20,242 bases of DNA, taken from positions 1 to 20,242 of the IMG/VR virus record IMGVR_UViG_3300034198_001115. One strand, given 5' to 3'. Of this stretch, positions 2,626 through 19,900 are shown piece by piece. The translations under genes were made by a program, and so were the position numbers. The DNA is from a virus. How positions within the stretch are numbered: position 1 is the first letter of the stretch; each line of letters starts with the position of its first letter. The notes under the pieces are model-generated. The model had not been told where the DNA came from. It made no database searches and was given only the letters and a program-made list of their open reading frames with translations.

Positions 2626-3504
2626 TTAAGATGCGGTTACTGTTAGTGCAGCAGAAGCTGTAACGCCGGTAGAATCGCCGACCTTGATCTCAACACGATA
2701 TAGATCTCCATTATCATCGGCAACCGTTAGTACACCGGTCGTGTATGACAAGCCACTTGCGCCGGCTATATTATACCATGTGCTACCGCTATTATCGGAC
2801 TTCTGCCATTGGAATGACATATCATTTGTTGACATATTCGATGTTACTGTGATAGAGAATGTTGCTCTATTACCTGCAACTACTGATTGATTGCTAGGAT
2901 CAGTATTAGAGAATGTAGCATCGGCTGCAATAGCATCGTCGGATGCATCACCAGATACGCTTGGATTCACGCGCATTGCAACTAAACATTCTGCTTTGTG
3001 ACGTGTTCTACTTTGTGCATCGGTGTATGTACGGTATGACCACCATCCTGCATTAACAAGACCGCGTGCTTTATTTGCCGTAACCATTGCTTCAAACTCA
3101 TCAACGAATATAATAGTGTGGCCGTTATTAACGTGATCGCCGTATGCGTTAGCTTCACCAGTACGTTGTAGCGAGTAAAAACCATCAGGAACGCCGCTTA
3201 AATTAACGCGTCCAGTTGTTACGCCAGGAGCAGCAATTGCATGGGCATATGTGTCATACAACGATATAAGTGCCGTACCAACAACGCGAACGTAGTATAG
3301 ATTACCACTAGTTAAGCCTCCGATTGGATCAGAGTCTGTTCCTACTACATACTTAACCTGATCCCCGGTTGAGAAACCAGTATTAGATTCTATTAAATTG
3401 ATAGTATCCGCAGATACGTTTACCTTCGTATCATTAAAGTATGCCTTACGAGTAATCCACTTAGGTTTACCAACAAGATTGTCTGTTTTTCCCCATAGTG
3501 CCAT
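2626..3504 (-). CDS. Virion structural protein with C-terminal Ig-like domain
   Basis: Protein of 292 residues. The start MALWGKTD is a form I recall from structural proteins of T4-like cyanophages and relatives. A beta-rich segment follows (about 30-110: STGDQVKYV; LTSGNLYYVRVV; a GVPDGFYSL end), then a middle domain (about 115-195: GHTIIFVDEFEAMV; AGWWSYRTYTD; AECLVAMRV). Residues about 198-292 form an Ig-like domain: core Trp in MSFQWQKSDNSG and the DNGDLYRVEI strand, ending ALTVTAS. Ig-like domains on phage particles commonly mediate weak surface or carbohydrate binding, so a capsid or tail decoration protein is likely. An AAGGAG site precedes the ATG. A terminator follows directly, so it closes its transcription unit. 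Confidence 0.75.
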   Translation of the reverse strand: MALWGKTDNLVGKPKWITRKAYFNDTKVNVSADTINLIESNTGFSTGDQVKYVVGTDSDPIGGLTSGNLYYVRVVGTALISLYDTYAHAIAAPGVTTGRVNLSGVPDGFYSLQRTGEANAYGDHVNNGHTIIFVDEFEAMVTANKARGLVNAGWWSYRTYTDAQSRTRHKAECLVAMRVNPSVSGDASDDAIAADATFSNTDPSNQSVVAGNRATFSITVTSNMSTNDMSFQWQKSDNSGSTWYNIAGASGLSYTTGVLTVADDNGDLYRVEIKVGDSTGVTASAALTVTAS

Positions 3505-3519
3505 TTTTATTTCTCCTTG

Positions 3520-3762
3520 TTAAACTGCAGTTGCTTTACCAACCCAGTCAAAAGCGCACTGATGGTCTTCATGATTTAACCAATCAGCAAATTTTGTTGC
3601 TTGTTCATCGGCTTCTGCCTTTGTTGCAAAATTTGCTGGACTTGGAAATTGAGTTGCTCGTTGCGTTGTTTCTTCTTCTGGGTTAGGAATAAACTCAGGA
3701 GCAATATTGCTTACAGTTAAGTTTTTCTTTTCAGAAGTTGCTTCGATTTTATATTGAGCCAT
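3520..3762 (-). CDS. Small hypothetical protein
   Basis: Protein of 80 residues with no family I recognise. It begins MAQYKIEATSEKKNL and is soluble and mixed alpha/beta in look. The second half (FATKAEADEQATKFADWLN) is a likely amphipathic helix, ending in FDWVGKATAV. An AAAGGAT site lies upstream. It sits between the repeat fibre and the Ig-domain virion protein with gaps of only 15-16 bases, so it is in the same late operon and may be a small virion or fibre accessory protein. This is context only. Confidence 0.65.
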   Translation of the reverse strand: MAQYKIEATSEKKNLTVSNIAPEFIPNPEEETTQRATQFPSPANFATKAEADEQATKFADWLNHEDHQCAFDWVGKATAV

Positions 3763-3778
3763 TTTGGTTATCCTTTAA

Positions 3779-4852
3779 TTAAGCTGTTATTGCGATCATT
3801 TCGCCAGTAGTCGGGTTCCATGCTACTTGATAAAAACCAGATGGAATAGAACCACCAGTAACCTGACGCAAAGATTGAATAACCGTAGTTCCAGCACCCG
3901 CACTTTGTAATGCAGAACCAGAAGAGTTGATTACGATACTATTGTCATGTTGGCTTGTGTCACCAGCCATGTTACCAATAGCGATAGCATTAGTGCCTTG
4001 AGATGTCATACCAGCATGACGACCGATAGCAACTGCGTAGCCTTCTTGCTGATATCGTCCAGCTAGCGCGCCGATAGCAACTGATTGTTGACCTTGAGAT
4101 GTTTCACCAGCCCAACGACCGATAGCGATAGCACGGAAGCTTTGTTCGTAATTAGCAGCTTCTTCACCAATTGCAACCGCTGCCCAACCTTGAGTTTCTT
4201 CACCAGCATAAGCACCGATTGCAACAGAGTGTTGCCCTTGGCTAGTTTGACCAGCATAAGTACCAATAGCAACTGATCGACTTTCTTGATCTGTTTGGCC
4301 AGCACGATGTCCAATAGCAACCGTTTGATTACTTTGTCCATCATTACCAGCTGAACGACCAATAGCGATAGCGCCCCAGTACTGATCAGTTTCGCCAGCC
4401 TGTGCACCGATAGCTATACCATGATAGCGTTGATTGCTATTGCCAGAATAACGACCGATAGCGATAGTTTCTTCTTGTTGGTCTGCATAACCAGCACGAC
4501 GACCGATAGCGATAGCGTTCCAATCCTGATTCGTTTCACCTGCTGAACGACCAATAGCGATAGCCATACTACCTTGGTTGTCATGCCCAGCATCTTTACC
4601 TATAGCAATGACATTAACACCGCCAGATATCTCACCAGCACCAATACCTAAAGTGATAGATCCACCGTATGCTGCTGGAACAGCATCACCACCACCAGAG
4701 CCAACAATAGAACCACCTGCAGTTGTTCCATCTGATAAACGCAGCACGCCATCCGTTGCATCATAGAATAGTTCGCCGGGTACTCCAACATATCCGGTGG
4801 CATCTGTGCCACCCATCTTATCTACGAAAATTTTATTTGTTATATTTGACAT
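3779..4852 (-). CDS. Beta-roll fibre/adhesin-like protein with AIGxxAG repeats
   Basis: Protein of 357 residues. Residues 1-50 resemble the N-terminal module of many phage fibre proteins (GELFYDATDGVLRLSDGTT). A Gly linker follows (51-56). From residue 81 to 304 there are fourteen consecutive 16-residue repeats with consensus (A/S)(I/V)AIGxxAGxxxQxxx, preceded and followed by one degenerate unit. The C-terminal cap is about 315-357 (VIQSLRQVTGG; GFYQVAWNPTTGEMIAI). The repeat looks like the AIGxxA head repeats of YadA-type trimeric adhesins, so a trimeric left-handed beta-roll is expected. There is no signal peptide or membrane anchor, so it is not an autotransporter; a receptor-binding or virion-surface fibre is most likely. 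It shares its operon with the Ig-domain protein. The GGGAG-containing leader supports the start. Confidence 0.82.
   Translation of the reverse strand: MSNITNKIFVDKMGGTDATGYVGVPGELFYDATDGVLRLSDGTTAGGSIVGSGGGDAVPAAYGGSITLGIGAGEISGGVNVIAIGKDAGHDNQGSMAIAIGRSAGETNQDWNAIAIGRRAGYADQQEETIAIGRYSGNSNQRYHGIAIGAQAGETDQYWGAIAIGRSAGNDGQSNQTVAIGHRAGQTDQESRSVAIGTYAGQTSQGQHSVAIGAYAGEETQGWAAVAIGEEAANYEQSFRAIAIGRWAGETSQGQQSVAIGALAGRYQQEGYAVAIGRHAGMTSQGTNAIAIGNMAGDTSQHDNSIVINSSGSALQSAGAGTTVIQSLRQVTGGSIPSGFYQVAWNPTTGEMIAITA
3941..4612 (-). repeat. Fourteen tandem 48-bp units encoding a 16-residue repeat
   Basis: In-frame repeats coding (A/S)(I/V)AIGxxAGxxxQxxx. All units keep the 16-residue length with no indels. 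They are diverged at DNA level, most conserved over the AIG-x-x-AG part, and vary at the last three residues (DWN, QEE, RYH, YWG and others). The constant frame plus variable tips suggests old expansion with selection on the exposed turn. Confidence 0.9.
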
Positions 4853-4869
4853 TTACTTAATCTCCCTGA

Positions 4870-6141
4870 TTACTTGTTCGAATTTGGTAAGTTTAGCGAA
4901 TGGAATGCAAGACCACCATATGACTTACCTGCGGCACCTGATTGGCGTGCACCTGACTTGCTACCCATTGGACGACCTCGGCCGCGTTTTTCTCCGGTTG
5001 GTTCAGCCTTTTTCTTTGGCTTGTCTTCATCATCTTCGTCATCGCCTTGATAAGACGTTCCATAAGTTCCCTTATGGACATACCGGCCATTCTTATATTC
5101 CATTTCGTTAATATATTCAATGAACTCACGATATGTAATCTTAGCCTCTTCTTTCATATGACCTGCTTTCTTAGCTGCATTTAAAACATCGGTGCGATCT
5201 TTATACGATCCATTAAAAGTGTCTTTAGTCAAGTGGGGTTTGTATAGATTATGATGTTCTGGTTTGATGTGCTTCAATAGAGCTGCACCGGCAGGATGCA
5301 TAGTATCATTAATATTAGCCTCTTTCATATCTTGTTTTGGAGGAGCCATTTTCTTTTTGATTTCGCCGGTGCCGGGTACTTCGTGATCTCCCTTTTCAAC
5401 GCCACTCTTATATACATTCTTACCTGTACTTGGGCTAACATAATAATCGCCTTTAGCATCTCGACCCGTACTCTTTACTTTGTACTTTTCGCCGCCCTCT
5501 TGAATACTTTCGACTTCTTCACCCATTCTTCTTTTTTTAACATCAGATAAAGGACTTTGTTGTATTCTTTTTCTCGATTTTTTAAGAGCATCTGAATATG
5601 CTTTATTTGTTTCTTTAGTAGATCTATTATCGCTACCGACCTGTAGTCTATTTGCTTGATCGTTATGCGCCTTTGCCGCTACAGCATTGCCTCTTTCAAA
5701 AGAATTTTGTCTTTTAGCTCTTGCAACCGCTGCTGCTCTAGCTGCTAGGTTAGAAGAAATCTCGTCGAGTCCTTCAACTTCTTCGTTGCGCTGCTTAGCA
5801 TAGTAAGCTGCAAGGGCTTGCTTCTTACGTTGTTCTTTAGACTTACCAGCAAACTTTGGATTATCACTATGCACAAAGTCATGGATCCAATCACCGGCAC
5901 TAGAGTCTTTACTGAGTACTTCATCAATCTGCTGTTCAGTCATTTGCTCGATGTCTTCTTTACGAAGCATCTTAAAGTCTTGAGCATCTAACTTACCATT
6001 TTTATTCTTATCAAGCTTGTGTTGATTGCCTTTTAGCTCTTCTTCCATATCACAACCGCACTTAGACATAGGTTTGTGACACTCAGGACACTTGGCTTCT
6101 TCATATAATCTTTTTTGCCAATCTCTGAAATTAATAGTCAT
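4870..6141 (-). CDS. Mosaic virion-type protein: Zn-ribbon, EF-hand, phage modules and AT-hook
   Basis: Protein of 423 residues made of small modules. The N-terminus MTINFRDWQKRLYEE resembles a capsid-targeting peptide ending in an (L)xE site. Residues 18-30 hold CPEC...CGC, a possible Zn-binding knuckle. Residues 44-55 (DKNKNGKLDAQD) are a canonical EF-hand Ca2+ loop. Residues 84-120 (DWIHDFVHSDNPKF... then ALAAYYAKQ) are a module I recall from marine T4-like phage proteins. Basic helices follow (130-205), then a second targeting-like stretch (ITYREFIEYINE, 335-346), an acidic linker, an AT-hook (KRGRGRPMG, 385-393) and the ending YGGLAFHSLNLPNSNK. The AT-hook should bind the minor groove of AT-rich DNA. 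An internal, DNA-associated capsid protein is the best guess. An AAGGA site precedes the ATG. Confidence 0.72.
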   Translation of the reverse strand: MTINFRDWQKRLYEEAKCPECHKPMSKCGCDMEEELKGNQHKLDKNKNGKLDAQDFKMLRKEDIEQMTEQQIDEVLSKDSSAGDWIHDFVHSDNPKFAGKSKEQRKKQALAAYYAKQRNEEVEGLDEISSNLAARAAAVARAKRQNSFERGNAVAAKAHNDQANRLQVGSDNRSTKETNKAYSDALKKSRKRIQQSPLSDVKKRRMGEEVESIQEGGEKYKVKSTGRDAKGDYYVSPSTGKNVYKSGVEKGDHEVPGTGEIKKKMAPPKQDMKEANINDTMHPAGAALLKHIKPEHHNLYKPHLTKDTFNGSYKDRTDVLNAAKKAGHMKEEAKITYREFIEYINEMEYKNGRYVHKGTYGTSYQGDDEDDEDKPKKKAEPTGEKRGRGRPMGSKSGARQSGAAGKSYGGLAFHSLNLPNSNK

Positions 6142-6197: not shown

Positions 6198-6644
6198 TTA
6201 ATCACCACTCTTCATGAATGATCTAAGCATCCATCCGTGTTTAGCATGGTGATCCAGTCTATCAGCGACAAAGTTAGCGAGCCCCTGATTACCTGCTGCA
6301 GTTGCAACTGCGAACACTTTATTTAGGGATTGGATAACTTGATTGTTTGCCGACAGAAGATTACCAAACATTTGCGCTGGGTATGAAGGCCGTGCAGTGT
6401 CTTCCATGATAGTCTTAAATGTATACATTTCTTCAAGACTTATTGGTGCATATTGATCGAGTGCGCGAATTTGTTCTGCCGTAGTATCAACTGCTTCGTG
6501 AAGTTCTGCATATAAGTCACCCAGAAATGAGTGATATTGCGCAAAGTCTCTTCCTTCTACATTCCAGTGATATGAGTGCGACTTAAAATACATGACAAAA
6601 GTATTGCCAAGTAATACTCGCATTGCTGCTGTTAATTCATCCAT
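6198..6644 (-). CDS. dps: Dps/ferritin-like DNA-protection protein
   Basis: Protein of 148 residues. Dps proteins form hollow 12-mers that oxidise and store iron using H2O2 and protect DNA. The ferroxidase pattern is visible: H26 in SYHWNVEG, H38 twelve residues later, D53 and E57 (VDTTAEQIRAL), matching His51, His63, Asp78 and Glu82 of E. coli Dps. The position of E. coli Asp67 is Gly42, with Asp43 beside it. The C-terminal helix (HHAKHGWMLRSFM) is also Dps-like. It lacks the long Lys-rich N-terminal tail E. coli Dps uses to bind DNA. An AAGAGG site (6657-6652) overlaps the stop of the preceding nucleotidyltransferase gene, and it lies among putative packaged proteins. It could protect DNA or scavenge iron during infection, or be carried in the virion. 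Confidence 0.88.
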   Translation of the reverse strand: MDELTAAMRVLLGNTFVMYFKSHSYHWNVEGRDFAQYHSFLGDLYAELHEAVDTTAEQIRALDQYAPISLEEMYTFKTIMEDTARPSYPAQMFGNLLSANNQVIQSLNKVFAVATAAGNQGLANFVADRLDHHAKHGWMLRSFMKSGD

Positions 6645-13546: not shown

Positions 13547-15160
13547 TCAACAGTTCCACTTTCTCAGCGCTTTATTAATTCGCGAATCAGGATCACGCGC
13601 AGTTTCGGCAGAAGTTAAACGCTTCTTCATTCCACCCATGCGAGCACAGAATGATTTACGACGATTAGCCGCCTTACTTCCTGGCTTTAATTTCGAAGGT
13701 TTTGTAGTCACCGCTGTTTGCAAATTGCCTCCAGTCTTACGATTATAAGCATCTACACCTTTTTGAGTCAGACCACCTTCGGATGACTTATACCCTTTCG
13801 AATCAATTGCGTATTCAAGTAATTCCTCGTCGGAAACTTCTTCTAGCTTTTCCCAGAGTATTTCTGAATCAACATTATTAATCAGAGCTAATTCTTCGAT
13901 AGCACTTTCGATTAAATCAAACTGCGCTTCTAGTTCTTCCATATTTGGTTTGCTAAAAGAATCGAAATGCGCTTGTGCTTCTTTTTTAGATTTATGTCTG
14001 TGAATCTCGCCAGTTGGAGTTGTAACTTTCCATTCAACATGGTCAGTTGTTCTTCCTGAAGGATTGGTTGTTCTTTCAATCTTTGGGGTAGTCTTTACTA
14101 CTGGTCTAACATATTTTTTGAATTTATCTAAGTCTGCTGCTTCATTCATGTCTTCACCGAGTTCTTCTCTAGACTGAAGGTAATCTCTTACACAGGTAAT
14201 ATAATCTTGTGCTAGTGTAATCTTAGATTGAACCCACTCGGGCATGTTTTCTTCATCATTTAGCATATCAATCAGGTCTTTTGAATTTCTAAGAATAGTC
14301 TGTAACTGAGTTCGTGCCATCTGACCTTCGTAGTCATACTCACCGCTGTCAATAGCTTTAACGGCTTCTGCAATCGGGTGAAACATATAGTCAACATCTT
14401 CTGGTACACAATTGGGCACCATCTTATTACCTTTCTTTTTTACACCAACTTGCTTATAACCAACCCAACAAGCTTCTAGAATCTCTTCGTCTATGCTTTC
14501 ACCATACATCGCGTGATATTTAATAGTATGCTTGCTCGGCTTAGTCTTTGCCGTAGCATCACCCGGAGCTGGTTCATATGCGGATGGATCACTATCACTT
14601 TTATTATCCATCTTTTTCCAGTGAGCTACTCTAGCTCTAGCAGTAGAATCACTTAATCCTTTGTGATAAGCTTTATTATCTATTCTTGAATCTTCATCAA
14701 CCAGCGCTTCTCCAAACTCATGACCAGCAACGCGCTTCATTTGCGCATTGAATTCGCTTTGAGATGGTTTTTCTTTATAAAGTTTTATAGAGATCTCTGG
14801 TCTTTCTTTACCCTTAATTCTCCAGTTGTAACCCTTTTCTTTATGATCTGCATCAGTAGTTTTTACAACTCTTCTTTTATACCCCGATTCCCACGATTCC
14901 GATTCATCTAACTCTTCATGTAAGTCTTTATCTGCTCCATGATATGTTCCCTTACCTTTTGTTATGTAAGAATTTACTCGAGCCATACCCCATTGCTGAG
15001 GTGTTGTGCCAGGGCGATGGCCAGAATTCCAAGCTGCAACGCCACGACGATATACTTTACGCAGCGTGTTAATTGATATACCAGACTTTTCTGCCTTTGC
15101 ATCTAGACCAGCCTCTGCGGTCTCACATATTACATCTACGTAATCTTTAAACGCGATCAT
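13547..15160 (-). CDS. Mosaic virion-type protein of five or more small phage modules
   Basis: Protein of 537 residues. The start is set at 15160, not 15169: 15160 gives an ATGA overlap with the preceding gene and an AAGGG site at nine bases, while at 15169 the same site touches the ATG. N-terminal MIAFKDYVDVICET is capsid-targeting-like, with IxE at residues 11-13. Modules by residue: 25-80 (NTLRKVYRRGVAAWNSGHRP; TPQQWGMARVNSYI), which I recall as DUF5824-type; 158-220 (AHWKKM; TKPSKHTIKYHAMYGE); 231-253 (CWVGYKQ...PNCVPE); 275-330 (GQMARTQLQTIL; EWVQSKITLAQDYI); 372-402; and 458-537 (GLTQKGVDAYNRKTGGNL; RRKSFCARMGGM; RINKALRKWNC), which I recall as DUF6321-type. No enzymatic motif is clear. 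The basic C-terminus suggests DNA binding inside the capsid. Confidence 0.78.
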   Translation of the reverse strand: MIAFKDYVDVICETAEAGLDAKAEKSGISINTLRKVYRRGVAAWNSGHRPGTTPQQWGMARVNSYITKGKGTYHGADKDLHEELDESESWESGYKRRVVKTTDADHKEKGYNWRIKGKERPEISIKLYKEKPSQSEFNAQMKRVAGHEFGEALVDEDSRIDNKAYHKGLSDSTARARVAHWKKMDNKSDSDPSAYEPAPGDATAKTKPSKHTIKYHAMYGESIDEEILEACWVGYKQVGVKKKGNKMVPNCVPEDVDYMFHPIAEAVKAIDSGEYDYEGQMARTQLQTILRNSKDLIDMLNDEENMPEWVQSKITLAQDYITCVRDYLQSREELGEDMNEAADLDKFKKYVRPVVKTTPKIERTTNPSGRTTDHVEWKVTTPTGEIHRHKSKKEAQAHFDSFSKPNMEELEAQFDLIESAIEELALINNVDSEILWEKLEEVSDEELLEYAIDSKGYKSSEGGLTQKGVDAYNRKTGGNLQTAVTTKPSKLKPGSKAANRRKSFCARMGGMKKRLTSAETARDPDSRINKALRKWNC

Positions 15161-16389
15161 CTTTGCCATCCCTTAAGTATATCTGGTGAGAAATTATTCT
15201 TGCTGAATTCCATACGATCTACAATCTTTACCGCGCCGCCTTTTAGGTGGTCGATTGCTACGAAGCCTTCAACGCCGGTTGCTTTAAATCCCGATGAAGT
15301 CTTAATAAACGTGCTTATGTGTCCGGCCTGATTCATCTTAGCGATTATAATCGCTTTGATGTCGGCAATCATGTTTGATATTTCAAATATCTTTACGATA
15401 TCTTCTTGAGGATGATTCGCAAAGAAAGACATAATCTTCTTGCGCTTCTCCTCTTTTCCGAATTTAGATTTCTCGGTCTTAAGAGTATCAATCTCTTTCT
15501 GAAACTTTTCGTATATCCAGTCAAATAACCCCTTTACATGTGCTTTCGTATCGGTTATCTTCTCGCCGCTTCTTACCTTACTGTTATTATATGTCTTGAC
15601 TAGAGTTAGTAGTTCCTCGTCGTTGCTTATAGCGTTTAGAGTTGCGGCATTGATCTTCTTAAACTCAGAGCCTAGGTCCGATAGCATATCGGTAACTTTC
15701 TTAGTCTCTGCAGCCGTGAATGTCGCTGTTCCAGAATAGTCCTTATAGTTAGCATCATCCATCCATACGCTTGGCACATGGGTCATCTTTGATGCAATTG
15801 CCTGACCAAACGATGCCTTCATCGTCTCAAACGATGAACCAGTATATGTGGTATGCCATACTATACCAATATTTGATTTTCTAATTCTTCTTGCAAGCTC
15901 TGAGTCGGCCGGTACAGCATAGACAATAGTATTAGGATGGAAGGTTATATATTCTACATCATCTATAACAACCTTATTGATGTCTTCCTTTGTAAACATC
16001 AGATCACCTTGATATACACCGGACTTAATGCCAAGCTTCTTAAGTTCGGTTAGTGCTATCTTTAACTTATCGGCTAGATCGCCCGATGTATCTGCATCGA
16101 TTTCAGCTGGTGTTTTATATACCTTTGGCTCTTTGTTAAACACGCCTTTCTTTGCAACAAAAAACTTACCATCGCGTGGATCTACGCCTGCAAAGATTGC
16201 TGGAGCTCCATCCCACTTAACCGTTGCTGTAATCTTAGACGACGAGTGACCGGCAAGCATATCTCTTAAATCACGAAGAAAGTTAATTGCCTGACGAGTG
16301 CCATTAACGCCAGCATTGAAGACTAAGTCCTCAATGTGTTCCATATGAGTATTCTTTTCTTCAGTAATATAATTCTGTGAAGTAATCAT
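15157..16389 (-). CDS. Nucleotidyltransferase/ligase-fold protein (DUF6267-like)
   Basis: Protein of 410 residues with the motif set of covalent nucleotidyltransferases (DNA/RNA ligases, capping enzymes): motif I KWDG at 58-61, where K58 would take AMP or GMP; motif III-like GVYQGDLMF at 124-132; IV-like VEGFVAID at 373-380; V-like AVKIV at 386-390. The N-terminal MITSQNYITEEKNTHMEHIEDLV is notable: the first ten residues align with the T4 capsid-targeting peptide MKTYQEFIAE, with an IxE cleavage-type site. The start at 16389 lacks a good ribosome site; an in-frame ATG at 16344 (MEHIEDL) is possible but would remove that peptide. A long helical insert (about 225-340) separates motifs. Similar proteins in T4-like marine phages are annotated DUF6267. 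A nucleic-acid ligase or end-repair role is likely, with substrate unknown. It overlaps the mosaic gene by ATGA. Confidence 0.82.
   Translation of the reverse strand: MITSQNYITEEKNTHMEHIEDLVFNAGVNGTRQAINFLRDLRDMLAGHSSSKITATVKWDGAPAIFAGVDPRDGKFFVAKKGVFNKEPKVYKTPAEIDADTSGDLADKLKIALTELKKLGIKSGVYQGDLMFTKEDINKVVIDDVEYITFHPNTIVYAVPADSELARRIRKSNIGIVWHTTYTGSSFETMKASFGQAIASKMTHVPSVWMDDANYKDYSGTATFTAAETKKVTDMLSDLGSEFKKINAATLNAISNDEELLTLVKTYNNSKVRSGEKITDTKAHVKGLFDWIYEKFQKEIDTLKTEKSKFGKEEKRKKIMSFFANHPQEDIVKIFEISNMIADIKAIIIAKMNQAGHISTFIKTSSGFKATGVEGFVAIDHLKGGAVKIVDRMEFSKNNFSPDILKGWQR
15170..15174 (-). promoter_or_regulatory. Ribosome binding site AAGGG deciding the start at 15160
   Basis: AAGGG on the minus strand, nine bases before the ATG at 15160 but immediately against the alternative ATG at 15169. 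With the ATGA overlap it favours the shorter protein. Confidence 0.65.
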
Positions 16390-17513: not shown

Positions 17514-18698
17514 TTAGAAGAATTGTTCTAGACTTTGAGAAGGTTCTGATTCTCGTATATCGTATGTCTTTTGGCCGTTATACTGATAGATTAGATTAGC
17601 GTTTATCTTATCTCTCTTACCTTCCAACACCGCTTTGATTTCATTAGCCATATCAGTTGCTGTACCAACCGGTACGTTCTGACAGATGTGATTAAGATTT
17701 CTTGATGGATTAAGAAGAGTAAAGTCTTGCGGCAAGCCCATAATACTCATTGCTTCACGATAGGTGAGATACCTATCGATAGTGGGGTGAGTAAGAAGGT
17801 TAGGGTAGTGCCCAACGAATGCTCCGATATGGCCTTTTGGAATCGTGGTGAGACGCCGCATAATATTCCCACCAACGGCAAGCTTGCTGAAGATACGATC
17901 ACAGCGATCAGCAGCACGCTCAAGCCCCTTCGAACGCATCCATTGTCCAACTTCATCATATTTCTTCCCTTTGCGCTCTAGCCAATCCATAGGATTATCA
18001 GTCTTTTCAATACGATCATAGAAGTCTTTGTGTGTGATACCACCTTCGAGTTCTTCTAGAACATATCGATACATTGGATCCCATTGACTTGGGATCTTAT
18101 CATTAGTTACTTCTTGTTGGGTAGCCAGAGCTCCCACGGATTCAAAAACGCTTTCAATAGAACGTATTGGAGTATCAAAATACTGAAATAAGGGGACATC
18201 GCTTCCTTGCCAGAAAAAGTAAAATGATCGCTCGCGAATCTGAGGCACGCCGTGAAGCAGTGACTTAGTTCTGTATATCGACATTGTATATTTATTCTCT
18301 TTGGCTATCACCATCAACTTATCTACGATAGGCTTACCTAGTTTTCCCGCAAATCCAGGTGCATTCTCTCCCCAGAATACTTTTGGTTTTATATTACAAA
18401 GCACTTCCCGTGCAGTGGTGTACATCCATTCATTGGCAGCTGCATCTGAGCTGGCGTAACCCGAAAGTGACGATAGACCGGCACAAGGACAAGTTGTACC
18501 AACAACGTCAACGCCGTGAGGAACAGTGCCACCTTCATCAAGCAAGATATAAGGTACTTCACTAAAGTAATTGACGAGGTGTGAATCGTTGCTTTTGAAT
18601 GGAGTGTATGAGAGGATATAGTCTGGTCTGGATCCAAATGCGGCCGTTTGTCCAAGAGCCTGTCCTCCGATAAGGGGTACAATGAAGGCGTGTTTCAT
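17514..18698 (-). CDS. C5-cytosine DNA methyltransferase (Dcm-like), divergent
   Basis: Protein of 394 residues. Transfers a methyl group from S-adenosylmethionine to C5 of cytosine in DNA. Motifs in order: a weak motif I (PLIGGQALGQ, 8-17), motif IV with the catalytic Cys (GTTCPCAGLS, C72), motif VI (WGENAPGF, E111), motif VIII (GVPQIRERSF, 150-159), a variable target-recognition region (about 165-300), motif IX (YREAMSIMGLPQDF, 313-326) and motif X (QNVPVGTA, 340-347). The usual PPCQ and DLFxGxGG forms are altered (CPCA; no FxG), so AdoMet binding or target may differ. It overlaps the glucosyltransferase by ATGA, so the two are translated together and a product-substrate link is likely. No cognate restriction endonuclease is seen, which argues for self-modification of phage DNA. 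Confidence 0.88.
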   Translation of the reverse strand: MKHAFIVPLIGGQALGQTAAFGSRPDYILSYTPFKSNDSHLVNYFSEVPYILLDEGGTVPHGVDVVGTTCPCAGLSSLSGYASSDAAANEWMYTTAREVLCNIKPKVFWGENAPGFAGKLGKPIVDKLMVIAKENKYTMSIYRTKSLLHGVPQIRERSFYFFWQGSDVPLFQYFDTPIRSIESVFESVGALATQQEVTNDKIPSQWDPMYRYVLEELEGGITHKDFYDRIEKTDNPMDWLERKGKKYDEVGQWMRSKGLERAADRCDRIFSKLAVGGNIMRRLTTIPKGHIGAFVGHYPNLLTHPTIDRYLTYREAMSIMGLPQDFTLLNPSRNLNHICQNVPVGTATDMANEIKAVLEGKRDKINANLIYQYNGQKTYDIRESEPSQSLEQFF

Positions 18699-19900
18699 AA
18701 GTTATCTTTTATCTTTGCCATCATCTCTGCAAAAGTATACTGAGAATCTTGGTGTTGTTTATAAAATTCAAAAGCCATATTACGATATTCATCTCGCATA
18801 ACACTATCCTTAGATAACTTAGCAACTAGATCATAAGCTGGTTGCATATCACGATCATCGAGCCACACTGTGCCAGTGTCCTTGCAGTTGATTAGCTTGT
18901 CACCAAACTTACGGTGAGTGCAACGCACGCCGTAACTCTTACGGAACACTGGAACTACACCAGTACACGCAACTTCGCAGTGAGTGTATTCGACAGAGCG
19001 CTCAATAAATCTTTCATCGAGTATTGACAACTGATAGCCAAATCCACATGCCGACATACGATAAAGCATCTGTTCGTTTATATATGGACCAAAGACATAG
19101 GCCGGTTGATTCTTTTCCATGTTTATAGTGCTAATATCATCGGCGATATGGCCGTGGAACTCTGATAGTTCTCTAAAAGCAAGATATGCTGGAGATTTTT
19201 CTATACCCTCAAAAGTAGTGATACATCCATTAGGTCGTAGGAATTCATTATGGAACTTAAACATCTGGACATAACCTTTCCAAGATGTTGTGCGCCCAAT
19301 CCACTTATGTTCGTTAGGTCTAGTCTGATCAATATCAAGCCAGTACTTAGCTCTTACTGAATCGAAGTCCATTCCTGGTTGAAAGCTTAGAATAGTCTTT
19401 GAGTTATTGTTATCAAAGAAATCTGCTAGACCCCCACCTTCAGTTGAAGAAGAAACGAGCCTAGCGAAATCGTTGCTAGAACTATGGCCAAATAAAACGC
19501 TCGCCTTTCGAATTGACTCATCAATTGCAGCATTTCTCTTAATTGATAGAGACGAGTGGTCATGTTGGATAAGTACGATTGGTTTATAAACTTCATCGAG
19601 GAACCTTTTAAATTGGTTGATACATTCTTCTGGATGACCGACTGATGGTAGACTATTAATTATAACAACATCGGCTGCGTTGCAGCCAGTGATCATCTTA
19701 TCAGTTTCTTCTTTCTTTGCAAGTTTTAACTGAACTACATTTGAAACATCATGAGCATTCTTACGGGTCCATGACTTATCTTTCGATGAATACACAGTAA
19801 AGTCATATCCATTCTTAGTCAGCCACTTTGTTTGTTCTACAGTAAACTTAGTAACACCACATCCTTCAATACCGCGCCCCATGATAATTGCTAGTTGCAT
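18695..19900 (-). CDS. agt: DNA alpha-glucosyltransferase, T4 Agt homologue
   Basis: Protein of 401 residues, nearly the length of T4 Agt (about 400). In T4 it adds glucose from UDP-glucose in alpha linkage to 5-hydroxymethylcytosine in DNA. From memory, similarity to T4 Agt is continuous: N-terminal GRGIEGCGVTKFTVEQ (T4 ARGLEGCGVTKFSLEQ), KDKSWTR, IQHDHSSLSIKRN (T4 YQHDHSVLSLRRN), WIGRTTSWKG, EGIEKSPAY, GFGYQLS, RSVEYTH, and the C-terminal QHQDS. The nucleotide-sugar and acceptor regions therefore look intact. An AAGGAT site lies eight bases before the ATG. It overlaps the UDG-like gene by ten bases and the C5-methyltransferase by four. The sugar and acceptor in this phage are not proven: the acceptor must be a hydroxylated base. 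Confidence 0.95.
   Translation of the reverse strand: MQLAIIMGRGIEGCGVTKFTVEQTKWLTKNGYDFTVYSSKDKSWTRKNAHDVSNVVQLKLAKKEETDKMITGCNAADVVIINSLPSVGHPEECINQFKRFLDEVYKPIVLIQHDHSSLSIKRNAAIDESIRKASVLFGHSSSNDFARLVSSSTEGGGLADFFDNNNSKTILSFQPGMDFDSVRAKYWLDIDQTRPNEHKWIGRTTSWKGYVQMFKFHNEFLRPNGCITTFEGIEKSPAYLAFRELSEFHGHIADDISTINMEKNQPAYVFGPYINEQMLYRMSACGFGYQLSILDERFIERSVEYTHCEVACTGVVPVFRKSYGVRCTHRKFGDKLINCKDTGTVWLDDRDMQPAYDLVAKLSKDSVMRDEYRNMAFEFYKQHQDSQYTFAEMMAKIKDNL

Follow-up and report, generated by a model that had tools for sequence, protein, structure and literature searches.

Gene linkage of a C5-cytosine-methyltransferase-family protein with T4-type hydroxymethylcytosine genes in relatives of virus record IMGVR_UViG_3300034198_001115

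The virus record IMGVR_UViG_3300034198_001115 (20,242 nucleotides, analyzed at its full length and called the window below) carries on its minus strand a homologue of the T4 DNA alpha-glucosyltransferase (Agt) and a homologue of C5-cytosine methyltransferases (C5-MTases; the protein of this family is called MT below). The two open reading frames (ORFs) are joined by an ATGA overlap and followed by one terminator-like hairpin (Table 1). The locus raises two questions: how the 5-hydroxymethylcytosine (hmC) for such an Agt would be made, and what a C5-MTase homologue would do beside it. The window was read as the 3' end of a T4-type hmC operon, in which a gp42-type hydroxymethylase would lie off the edge, Agt would glucosylate hmC, and MT would be an accessory of the gp42 pathway. 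From sequence comparisons, the probability of this reading was put at roughly 0.8. The gp42/Agt pathway is T4-type; the new element is MT, with its invariant catalytic residues, altered cofactor pocket, and linkage to gp42.

Agt matched the Pfam family AGT (PF11440) with E 5.8e-93 (residues 14–365, profile positions 1–353 of 355, 312.2 bits at a cut-off of 25), as well as phrog_2888 (2.2e-107) and solved T4 Agt chains, e.g. 1xv5 (E 6.2e-107). It was 42.6% identical to T4/T6 Agt. By family match, it is classed as a T4-type DNA alpha-glucosyltransferase, and glucose transfer to hmC is predicted.

The window is a complete virus record, one end of which falls inside an ORF upstream of Agt; it is therefore probably a fragment, cut just upstream of that gene, and relatives in IMG/VR were examined for the missing step (57 Agt loci and the best 80 of 105 MT loci). 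Linkage was counted over the loci up to L127, from which the repeats L001, L059, L060, L063, and L067 were removed, leaving 122 loci; near-identical contigs (L083/L084) were retained. MT was found at most 1.5 kb downstream of Agt in 66 of the 67 related loci having at least 500 nt downstream, the exception being L050, and the spacing determined by tblastn was 0–66 nt in 61 of the 67. The pairing of the two genes is far beyond chance. Both are under purifying selection, with nonsynonymous divergence (dN) of 0.06–0.07 and synonymous divergence (dS) of 0.76–0.82 between the window and L003. Hairpins of the kind following MT were not enriched (3 found, 2.1 expected from shuffled sequence), so the weight of this hairpin rests on its position.

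A gp42 homologue was detected by tblastn in 92 of the 122 loci, always on the Agt/MT strand and 45–65% identical to T4 gp42. Where at least 2.5 kb preceded Agt, gp42 was upstream of it in 43 of 44 loci (exception L035). It was upstream of MT in all 42 loci with more than 6 kb of upstream sequence, the largest distance being 6.2 kb (L082), and in 26 of the 31 loci with 3–6 kb. The 75 full-length upstream copies had 56 T4-identical positions that were at least 97% conserved, and all 75 had Asp at the position of T4 Asp179, where E. coli ThyA has Asn. We take this position to be base-selecting and of the dCMP type when occupied by Asp. The family searches with PF00303 and PF12851 covered 50 of 123 loci, longer records first. 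The thymidylate synthase family PF00303 was present in 42 of these 50 related records, one of the matches being the thymidylate synthase of phage S-TIM5. The other eight records (G001, G013, G030, G035, G037, G038, G039, and G040) all end at most 6 kb upstream of MT, and one of the eight, L070, has a gp42 remnant at its edge. Eleven MT loci were situated in bacterial genome contigs, eight of them with gp42.

Linkage was also counted from the side of gp42, in the best 80 of at least 562 gp42 loci, which partly came from the same records as the MT set. Among those having at least 6 kb downstream, 16 of 43 carried MT, and no other C5-MTases were seen in the 43. The dependence runs one way: all 42 MT loci with sufficient upstream sequence had gp42, yet only 16 of 43 gp42 loci had MT. 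The link between MT and hmC that had been proposed in the preliminary description holds as gene linkage and is unsupported as a route to hmC; MT accompanies gp42 rather than replacing it.

The gene order was read from L004, the Agt of which is 89% identical to that of the window: a 172-aa gene, gp42, dCMP deaminase, a 196-aa gene, Agt, and MT. In six relatives, the gene just upstream of gp42 (L261 3022–3534, L004 816–1334) shared 62–80% identity with its L004 counterpart, and in L072 50%. In the single member for which a lax cut-off was applied, PF07659 (nucleotide modification associated domain 1) was matched marginally (E 0.043). This gene was considered as a gp56 candidate and rejected, as a profile built from 10 copies revealed no relationship to gp56.

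A contig that would supply the window's own gp42 is L261. Its source metagenome also yielded L002, which matches the window at 100% identity along 11,533 nt. The end of L261 overlaps the cut end of the window by 8 nt, and the uracil-DNA glycosylase (UDG)-like frame runs on across the join. The two pieces are co-linear on L010, where L261 reaches position 2266 and the window begins at position 2259. By tetranucleotide use, L261 was the nearest to the window of 185 pieces and within the window's own spread; the GC contents were 40.4% and 40.5%, respectively. L261 contains the small gene, a gp42 57% identical to that of T4, and a frame resembling the L004 dCMP deaminase. It very probably belongs to the same phage as the window.

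A gp42-type enzyme encoded beyond the window edge, with a dCMP deaminase adjoining, would thus make 5-hydroxymethyl-dCMP; the phage polymerase would incorporate the hydroxymethylated nucleotide, and Agt would add alpha-glucose to hmC in DNA. MT would be a C5-MTase-fold accessory of this pathway and not the source of hmC. No TET/JBP-type dioxygenase (PF12851) was found in the 50 related records, a weak negative result, since the controls gave no match either. Given this and the gp42 linkage, the most likely route is hmC synthesis at the nucleotide level followed by glucosylation by Agt.

The gp42-type enzyme with its dCMP-type Asp, the dCMP deaminase, and the T4-type Agt are shared with the T4 gene 42/agt pathway. 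The relatives differ from T4 in having these genes in one compact cluster, with the UDG-like gene in 36 of the 122 loci and the C5-MTase-fold gene last, whereas the agt of T4 itself is approximately 10 kb from gene 42. T4 was not among the six phage records matching MT, and tblastn with its beta-glucosyltransferase gave no match in the six loci and two long relatives searched. The environmental phages with an hmC carbamoyltransferase reported by MetaGPA (PMC8670742) are described as having a similar set, that is, a thymidylate-synthase-family gene, dCMP deaminase, and an hmC-decorating enzyme, but there the decoration is carbamoyl and not a sugar, and the word "methyltransferase" has no occurrence in the main text of that paper. 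No description of a C5-MTase linked to gp42 was present in the titles and abstract openings among the matches listed in the open-licence literature.

MT matched the Pfam family DNA_methylase (PF00145) weakly (E 6.4e-14), and only residues 58–355 were matched. The AlphaFold2 model of MT had a predicted local distance difference test score (pLDDT) of 89 and a predicted template modelling score (pTM) of 0.87. Its best fold match among C5-MTases was M.HaeIII (1dct; Z 23.7, 271 residues at 3.3 Å); the values were Z 22.5 and 284 residues at 3.3 Å for M.HhaI (2z6u) and Z 21.9 and 278 residues at 3.8 Å for CmoX (8yf3). The catalytic residues of C5-MTases were all present: Pro71, Cys72, Glu111, Gln153, Arg155, and Arg157 were invariant in 49/49 MT sequences. 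A second, C-terminal MT fragment (residues 272–394, 76% identical) was observed approximately 1.1 kb past the full MT in L034 (4579–4947) and L035 (7689–8057).

The cofactor site was compared with those of Dcm, CmoX, and four phage C5-MTases, a small set of six. In place of the canonical F-x-G-x-G-G, motif I of MT was PLIGG in 48 of 49 sequences and PLVGG in one. Val or Ile stood at the place of F18 and Leu at that of G20, positions taken by Phe (five) or Cys (one) and by Gly (six) in the comparators. Motif X had CQ in the MT family, against GN (four), CN (one), and GR (CmoX) in the comparators; its Gln340, found in 49/49 sequences, aligns with N304 of M.HhaI and R350 of CmoX. In CmoX, Arg350 touches the carboxymethyl group of carboxy-S-adenosylmethionine (Cx-SAM), according to PMC12783734. 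The residue at this position decides whether S-adenosylmethionine or Cx-SAM serves as the cofactor. The alignments disagreed on the motif II acid, with hhalign placing Ser/Thr30 there and MAFFT the variable position 36; no conserved acid directly follows strand 28–30 of the model among the 49 sequences. In the set of 26 records used for counting start positions, 19 of 25 PF00145 matches started at profile position 56 or later. The PL(I/V)GG and QNVP signatures were kept in all 15 further aligned MT members, including those of phages XG4, S-TIM5, and S-TIM54. MT thus shares with canonical C5-MTases (M.HhaI, M.HaeIII, Dcm, and the T4-like RB43/GAP161 kind) the fold and the catalytic motifs IV, VI, and VIII, and differs from them in the replaced motif I, the apparent lack of a motif II acid where the model would place it, and CQ in motif X. 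By alignment, its cofactor site differs from those of the six comparators, a claim that the small set confines to the difference itself; binding of S-adenosylmethionine (SAM) may persist.

Isolated phages with the MT family are the cyanophages S-TIM5 and S-TIM54/61/66 and Pseudoalteromonas phage vB_Psh_XG4, at 30.8–32.0% identity. XG4 has gp42 (E 3.7e-76) approximately 4.5 kb before MT and gave no Agt match; S-TIM5 and S-TIM54 gave weak Agt matches only. In S-TIM5 (L128 8766–9602) and S-TIM54 (L281 3114–3956), proteins annotated as thymidylate synthase/ThyA have Asp at the place of E. coli ThyA Asn177, which suggests an enzyme of the dCMP type; they were not matched by the gp42 profile.

The genes neighbouring MT in the clusters also vary. 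In the L082 cluster, one protein matches phrog_842 (beta-glucosyl-HMC-alpha-glucosyltransferase). Agt is replaced in L072 and L114 by a phrog_14998 protein, with homologues in L075, L081, L112, and L125; its AlphaFold2 model (pLDDT 55) was too poor for use, so calling these proteins glycosyltransferases is a guess. In L045, a UDP-glucose dehydrogenase-like protein sits between Agt and MT. With sugar-transferase partners varying in this way, MT is tied to hmC more than to glucose. Between the phrog_14998-like gene and MT of L125, a UDP-galactopyranose mutase was observed (4742–5743; PF03275, E 5.8e-51), a possible sign of galactofuranose-type DNA decoration. L093 has a myo-inositol-1-phosphate synthase-like gene (2960–4117; PF01658) between its UDG-like gene and MT.

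Several observations weigh against the proposed reading. Five of the 31 MT loci with 3–6 kb upstream (L035, L079, L083, L084, and L087) lack gp42 there; of these, L083 and L084 reach their contig end after 5,987 nt, 12 nt under the 6-kb class, and the gp42 of L082 is 6.2 kb away. In L035, which has both Agt and MT, the 4.2 kb preceding Agt contain no gp42. No contig was found to span the junction of L261 and the window (0 exact matches in a search that may omit records close to the window), so that the window's own gp42 is something we infer, and the 8-nt overlap sits in conserved coding sequence. A tblastn search of six loci and two long relatives detected no homologue of T4 gp56 (dCTPase) or gp1, so cytosine replacement may be incomplete. 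A generic 2-oxoglutarate-Fe(II) oxygenase (PF13640), not a match to the TET model, was present in three of nine records and may have a role. In MT itself, Asp54, which lines up with the adenine-binding Asp, is retained by 48/49 sequences, and position 31, aligned with an adenine-contact position, is aromatic (Tyr/Phe) in 49/49, so SAM may still bind; furthermore, six of 25 PF00145 matches reach the motif I–II part (start 10–46). The case for MT acting on hmC would consist of its linkage and its altered motifs.

With the residues for base flipping and covalent catalysis kept and the cofactor site altered, MT most likely works on cytosine or hydroxymethylcytosine in phage DNA, by a covalent attack of Cys72 at C6. 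That its natural substrate is hmC, some of which it would tailor or edit before or instead of glucosylation, is proposed tentatively, at slightly less than even odds. In a more specific and unlikely version, MT would not use SAM in the normal way: it would flip gp42-made hmC and form a Cys72–C6 adduct, and after loss of water or formaldehyde either a new group would be placed on the exocyclic methylene or the hydroxymethyl group would be erased at chosen sites. We know of no natural C5-MTase-type enzyme that acts so on hmC. In vitro, M.MpeI is described as forming covalent complexes with hmC, presumably releasing the hydroxymethyl group as formaldehyde (PMC11347137), and an engineered M.SssI as coupling thiols to hmC (PMC7176277). 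A natural hmC-acting enzyme would explain both the gp42 linkage and the altered cofactor site.

Nearly as likely as an hmC substrate, and still short of probable, is methylation of residual cytosine by an ordinary SAM-dependent C5-methyltransferase with drifted motifs, which would act on phage or host DNA, before hmC is incorporated or at sites missed by it, as a backup shield against restriction or against the phage's own cytosine-specific nucleases. The fold, the catalytic motifs, and the retained Asp54 and Tyr/Phe31 fit such an enzyme, and some T4-like phages carry C5-MTs, for which the authors of PMC8056088 suggest that they may inhibit DenA and dCTPase-dUTPase. However, the same source reports no known enzymes for the synthesis of hmC or other non-canonical bases in the Tevenvirinae groups XV and XVI (RB43, RB49) that have these C5-MTs, whereas in the window's relatives MT occurs together with hmC synthesis genes and with gp42 at every MT locus that has more than 6 kb upstream. 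Plain cytosine should also be scarce if its replacement is complete, and the invariance of PL(I/V)GG and of Gln at the N304 place, as well as the late start of most PF00145 matches, speaks against such an enzyme.

A role without group transfer, in which MT would flip bases as a partner of Agt or of some other glycosyltransferase, recognizing sites and offering hmC to that enzyme, appears improbable. It would suit the altered cofactor site, the closeness of MT to Agt in all but one of the loci compared, and the ATGA junction, at which translation is possibly coupled. On the other hand, a pure scaffold would have no need of Cys72, Glu111, Arg155, and Arg157, which are invariant, and MT is also found beside other sugar-transferase genes and, in XG4, where no Agt was matched.

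It is very improbable that MT is of the type of CmoX, the DNA cytosine C5-carboxymethyltransferase of Synechococcus phage S-B43 (PMC12783734; PDB 8YF3), and uses carboxy-SAM to install 5-carboxymethylcytosine beside glucosyl-hmC. The two share the C5-MTase fold and an association with phage hypermodification, CmoX is among the closest folds and sequence-profile matches, and neither has Asn at the place of M.HhaI N304. MT differs in its altered motif I, its gp42 linkage, and an invariant Gln340 instead of the carboxylate-binding Arg, and has CPCA at the catalytic Cys without the SPPC motif used to collect CmoX; on these two residue comparisons, MT was rejected as a CmoX. CmoA (TIGR00740) was found in 0/26 records, nearly all of them fragments, in a search in which 9/14 controls matched, one of them above the cut-off.

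Phage TET pathways that pair a C5-methyltransferase with a glycosyltransferase are known, and the preliminary description had combined such a route with a T4-type Agt: MT would make 5-methylcytosine in DNA, an unseen TET-type dioxygenase would oxidize it to hmC, and Agt would glucosylate it, either at the MT sites alone or genome-wide. The adjacency of MT and a glycosyltransferase and the PF13640 oxygenases speak for this route, but it is highly unlikely given the gene content, with a gp42-type hydroxymethylase upstream in the relatives and in L261 and TET/JBP matches in none of the records searched, a search with no positive control. The PF13640 sites are G020:75818–76081, G021:47948–48217, and G008:57931–58179, the first two approximately 6 kb upstream of gp42. 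What stands of that description is the linkage of a T4-type Agt with a C5-MTase homologue and, hence, probably glucosylated cytosine; hmC made on DNA is not supported. It had named a gp42-type hydroxymethylase, together with complete genomic hmC and a methyltransferase unconnected with hmC sites, as evidence to the contrary: of these, the enzyme, with its dCMP-type Asp, was found in relatives and in L261 abutting the window.

Upstream of Agt, the window's cut ORF (Table 1) has homologues in the UDG-like gene, which precedes Agt in L010, L015, and other loci. PF03167 was the best model in four members, below the cut-off (E 0.0029 to 7.4e-05), and the window's own fragment had no PF03167 match. 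This protein might plausibly remove the hydroxymethyluracil that arises when hmC is deaminated. Elsewhere in the window, a ferritin-like protein is encoded at 6198–6644 on the minus strand (PF00210, E 4.9e-20). The protein at 15157–16389 (DUF6267) had its best likeness to Phage C48C1, Stenotrophomonas phage DLP6, Methylophilales phages Melnitz, and Pelagibacter phage HTVC008M, and also matches many cyanophages. Judging from these kin, the window's phage appears to be T4-like and is probably aquatic.

Table 1. Positions of the Agt/MT gene pair and adjoining features in the window
Feature	Position	Strand	Evidence
MT, C5-cytosine-methyltransferase-family protein, 394 aa	17514..18698	-	PF00145 (6.4e-14), model and fold match, motif counts, alignments
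MT residues: catalytic Cys72 (CPCAGLS), ENAP Glu111, Q-x-R-x-R Arg155/Arg157; altered cofactor motifs VPLIGG, Gln340			
Agt, T4-type DNA alpha-glucosyltransferase, 401 aa	18695..19900	-	PF11440, phrog_2888, T4 Agt structures, T4/T6 identity
ATGA stop/start overlap, agt-MT junction	18695..18698	-	Junction sequence; tblastn spacing in relatives
Terminator-like hairpin with T-rich tail, immediately past the MT stop codon	17494..17511	-	Position
UDG-superfamily-like ORF, 3' part, truncated by the contig end	19891..20241	-	Homologues with sub-threshold PF03167; frame continues from the 3' end of L261

A C5-MTase would be expected to have little role in DNA that is already 5-hydroxymethylated, yet the MT family sits in gp42 clusters wherever enough sequence is available. 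One possibility is that not all cytosine is replaced and that methylation supplements the replacement; the other is a natural activity of C5-MTases on hmC, of a kind familiar to us only in vitro. If MT does act on hmC in the specific, unlikely way outlined above, a second, sequence-specific mark would exist beside glucosyl-hmC. The isolated carriers XG4 and S-TIM5 make the role of MT testable, and either outcome would be relevant to phage DNA modification, to the evasion of restriction, and to enzyme tools for handling hmC.

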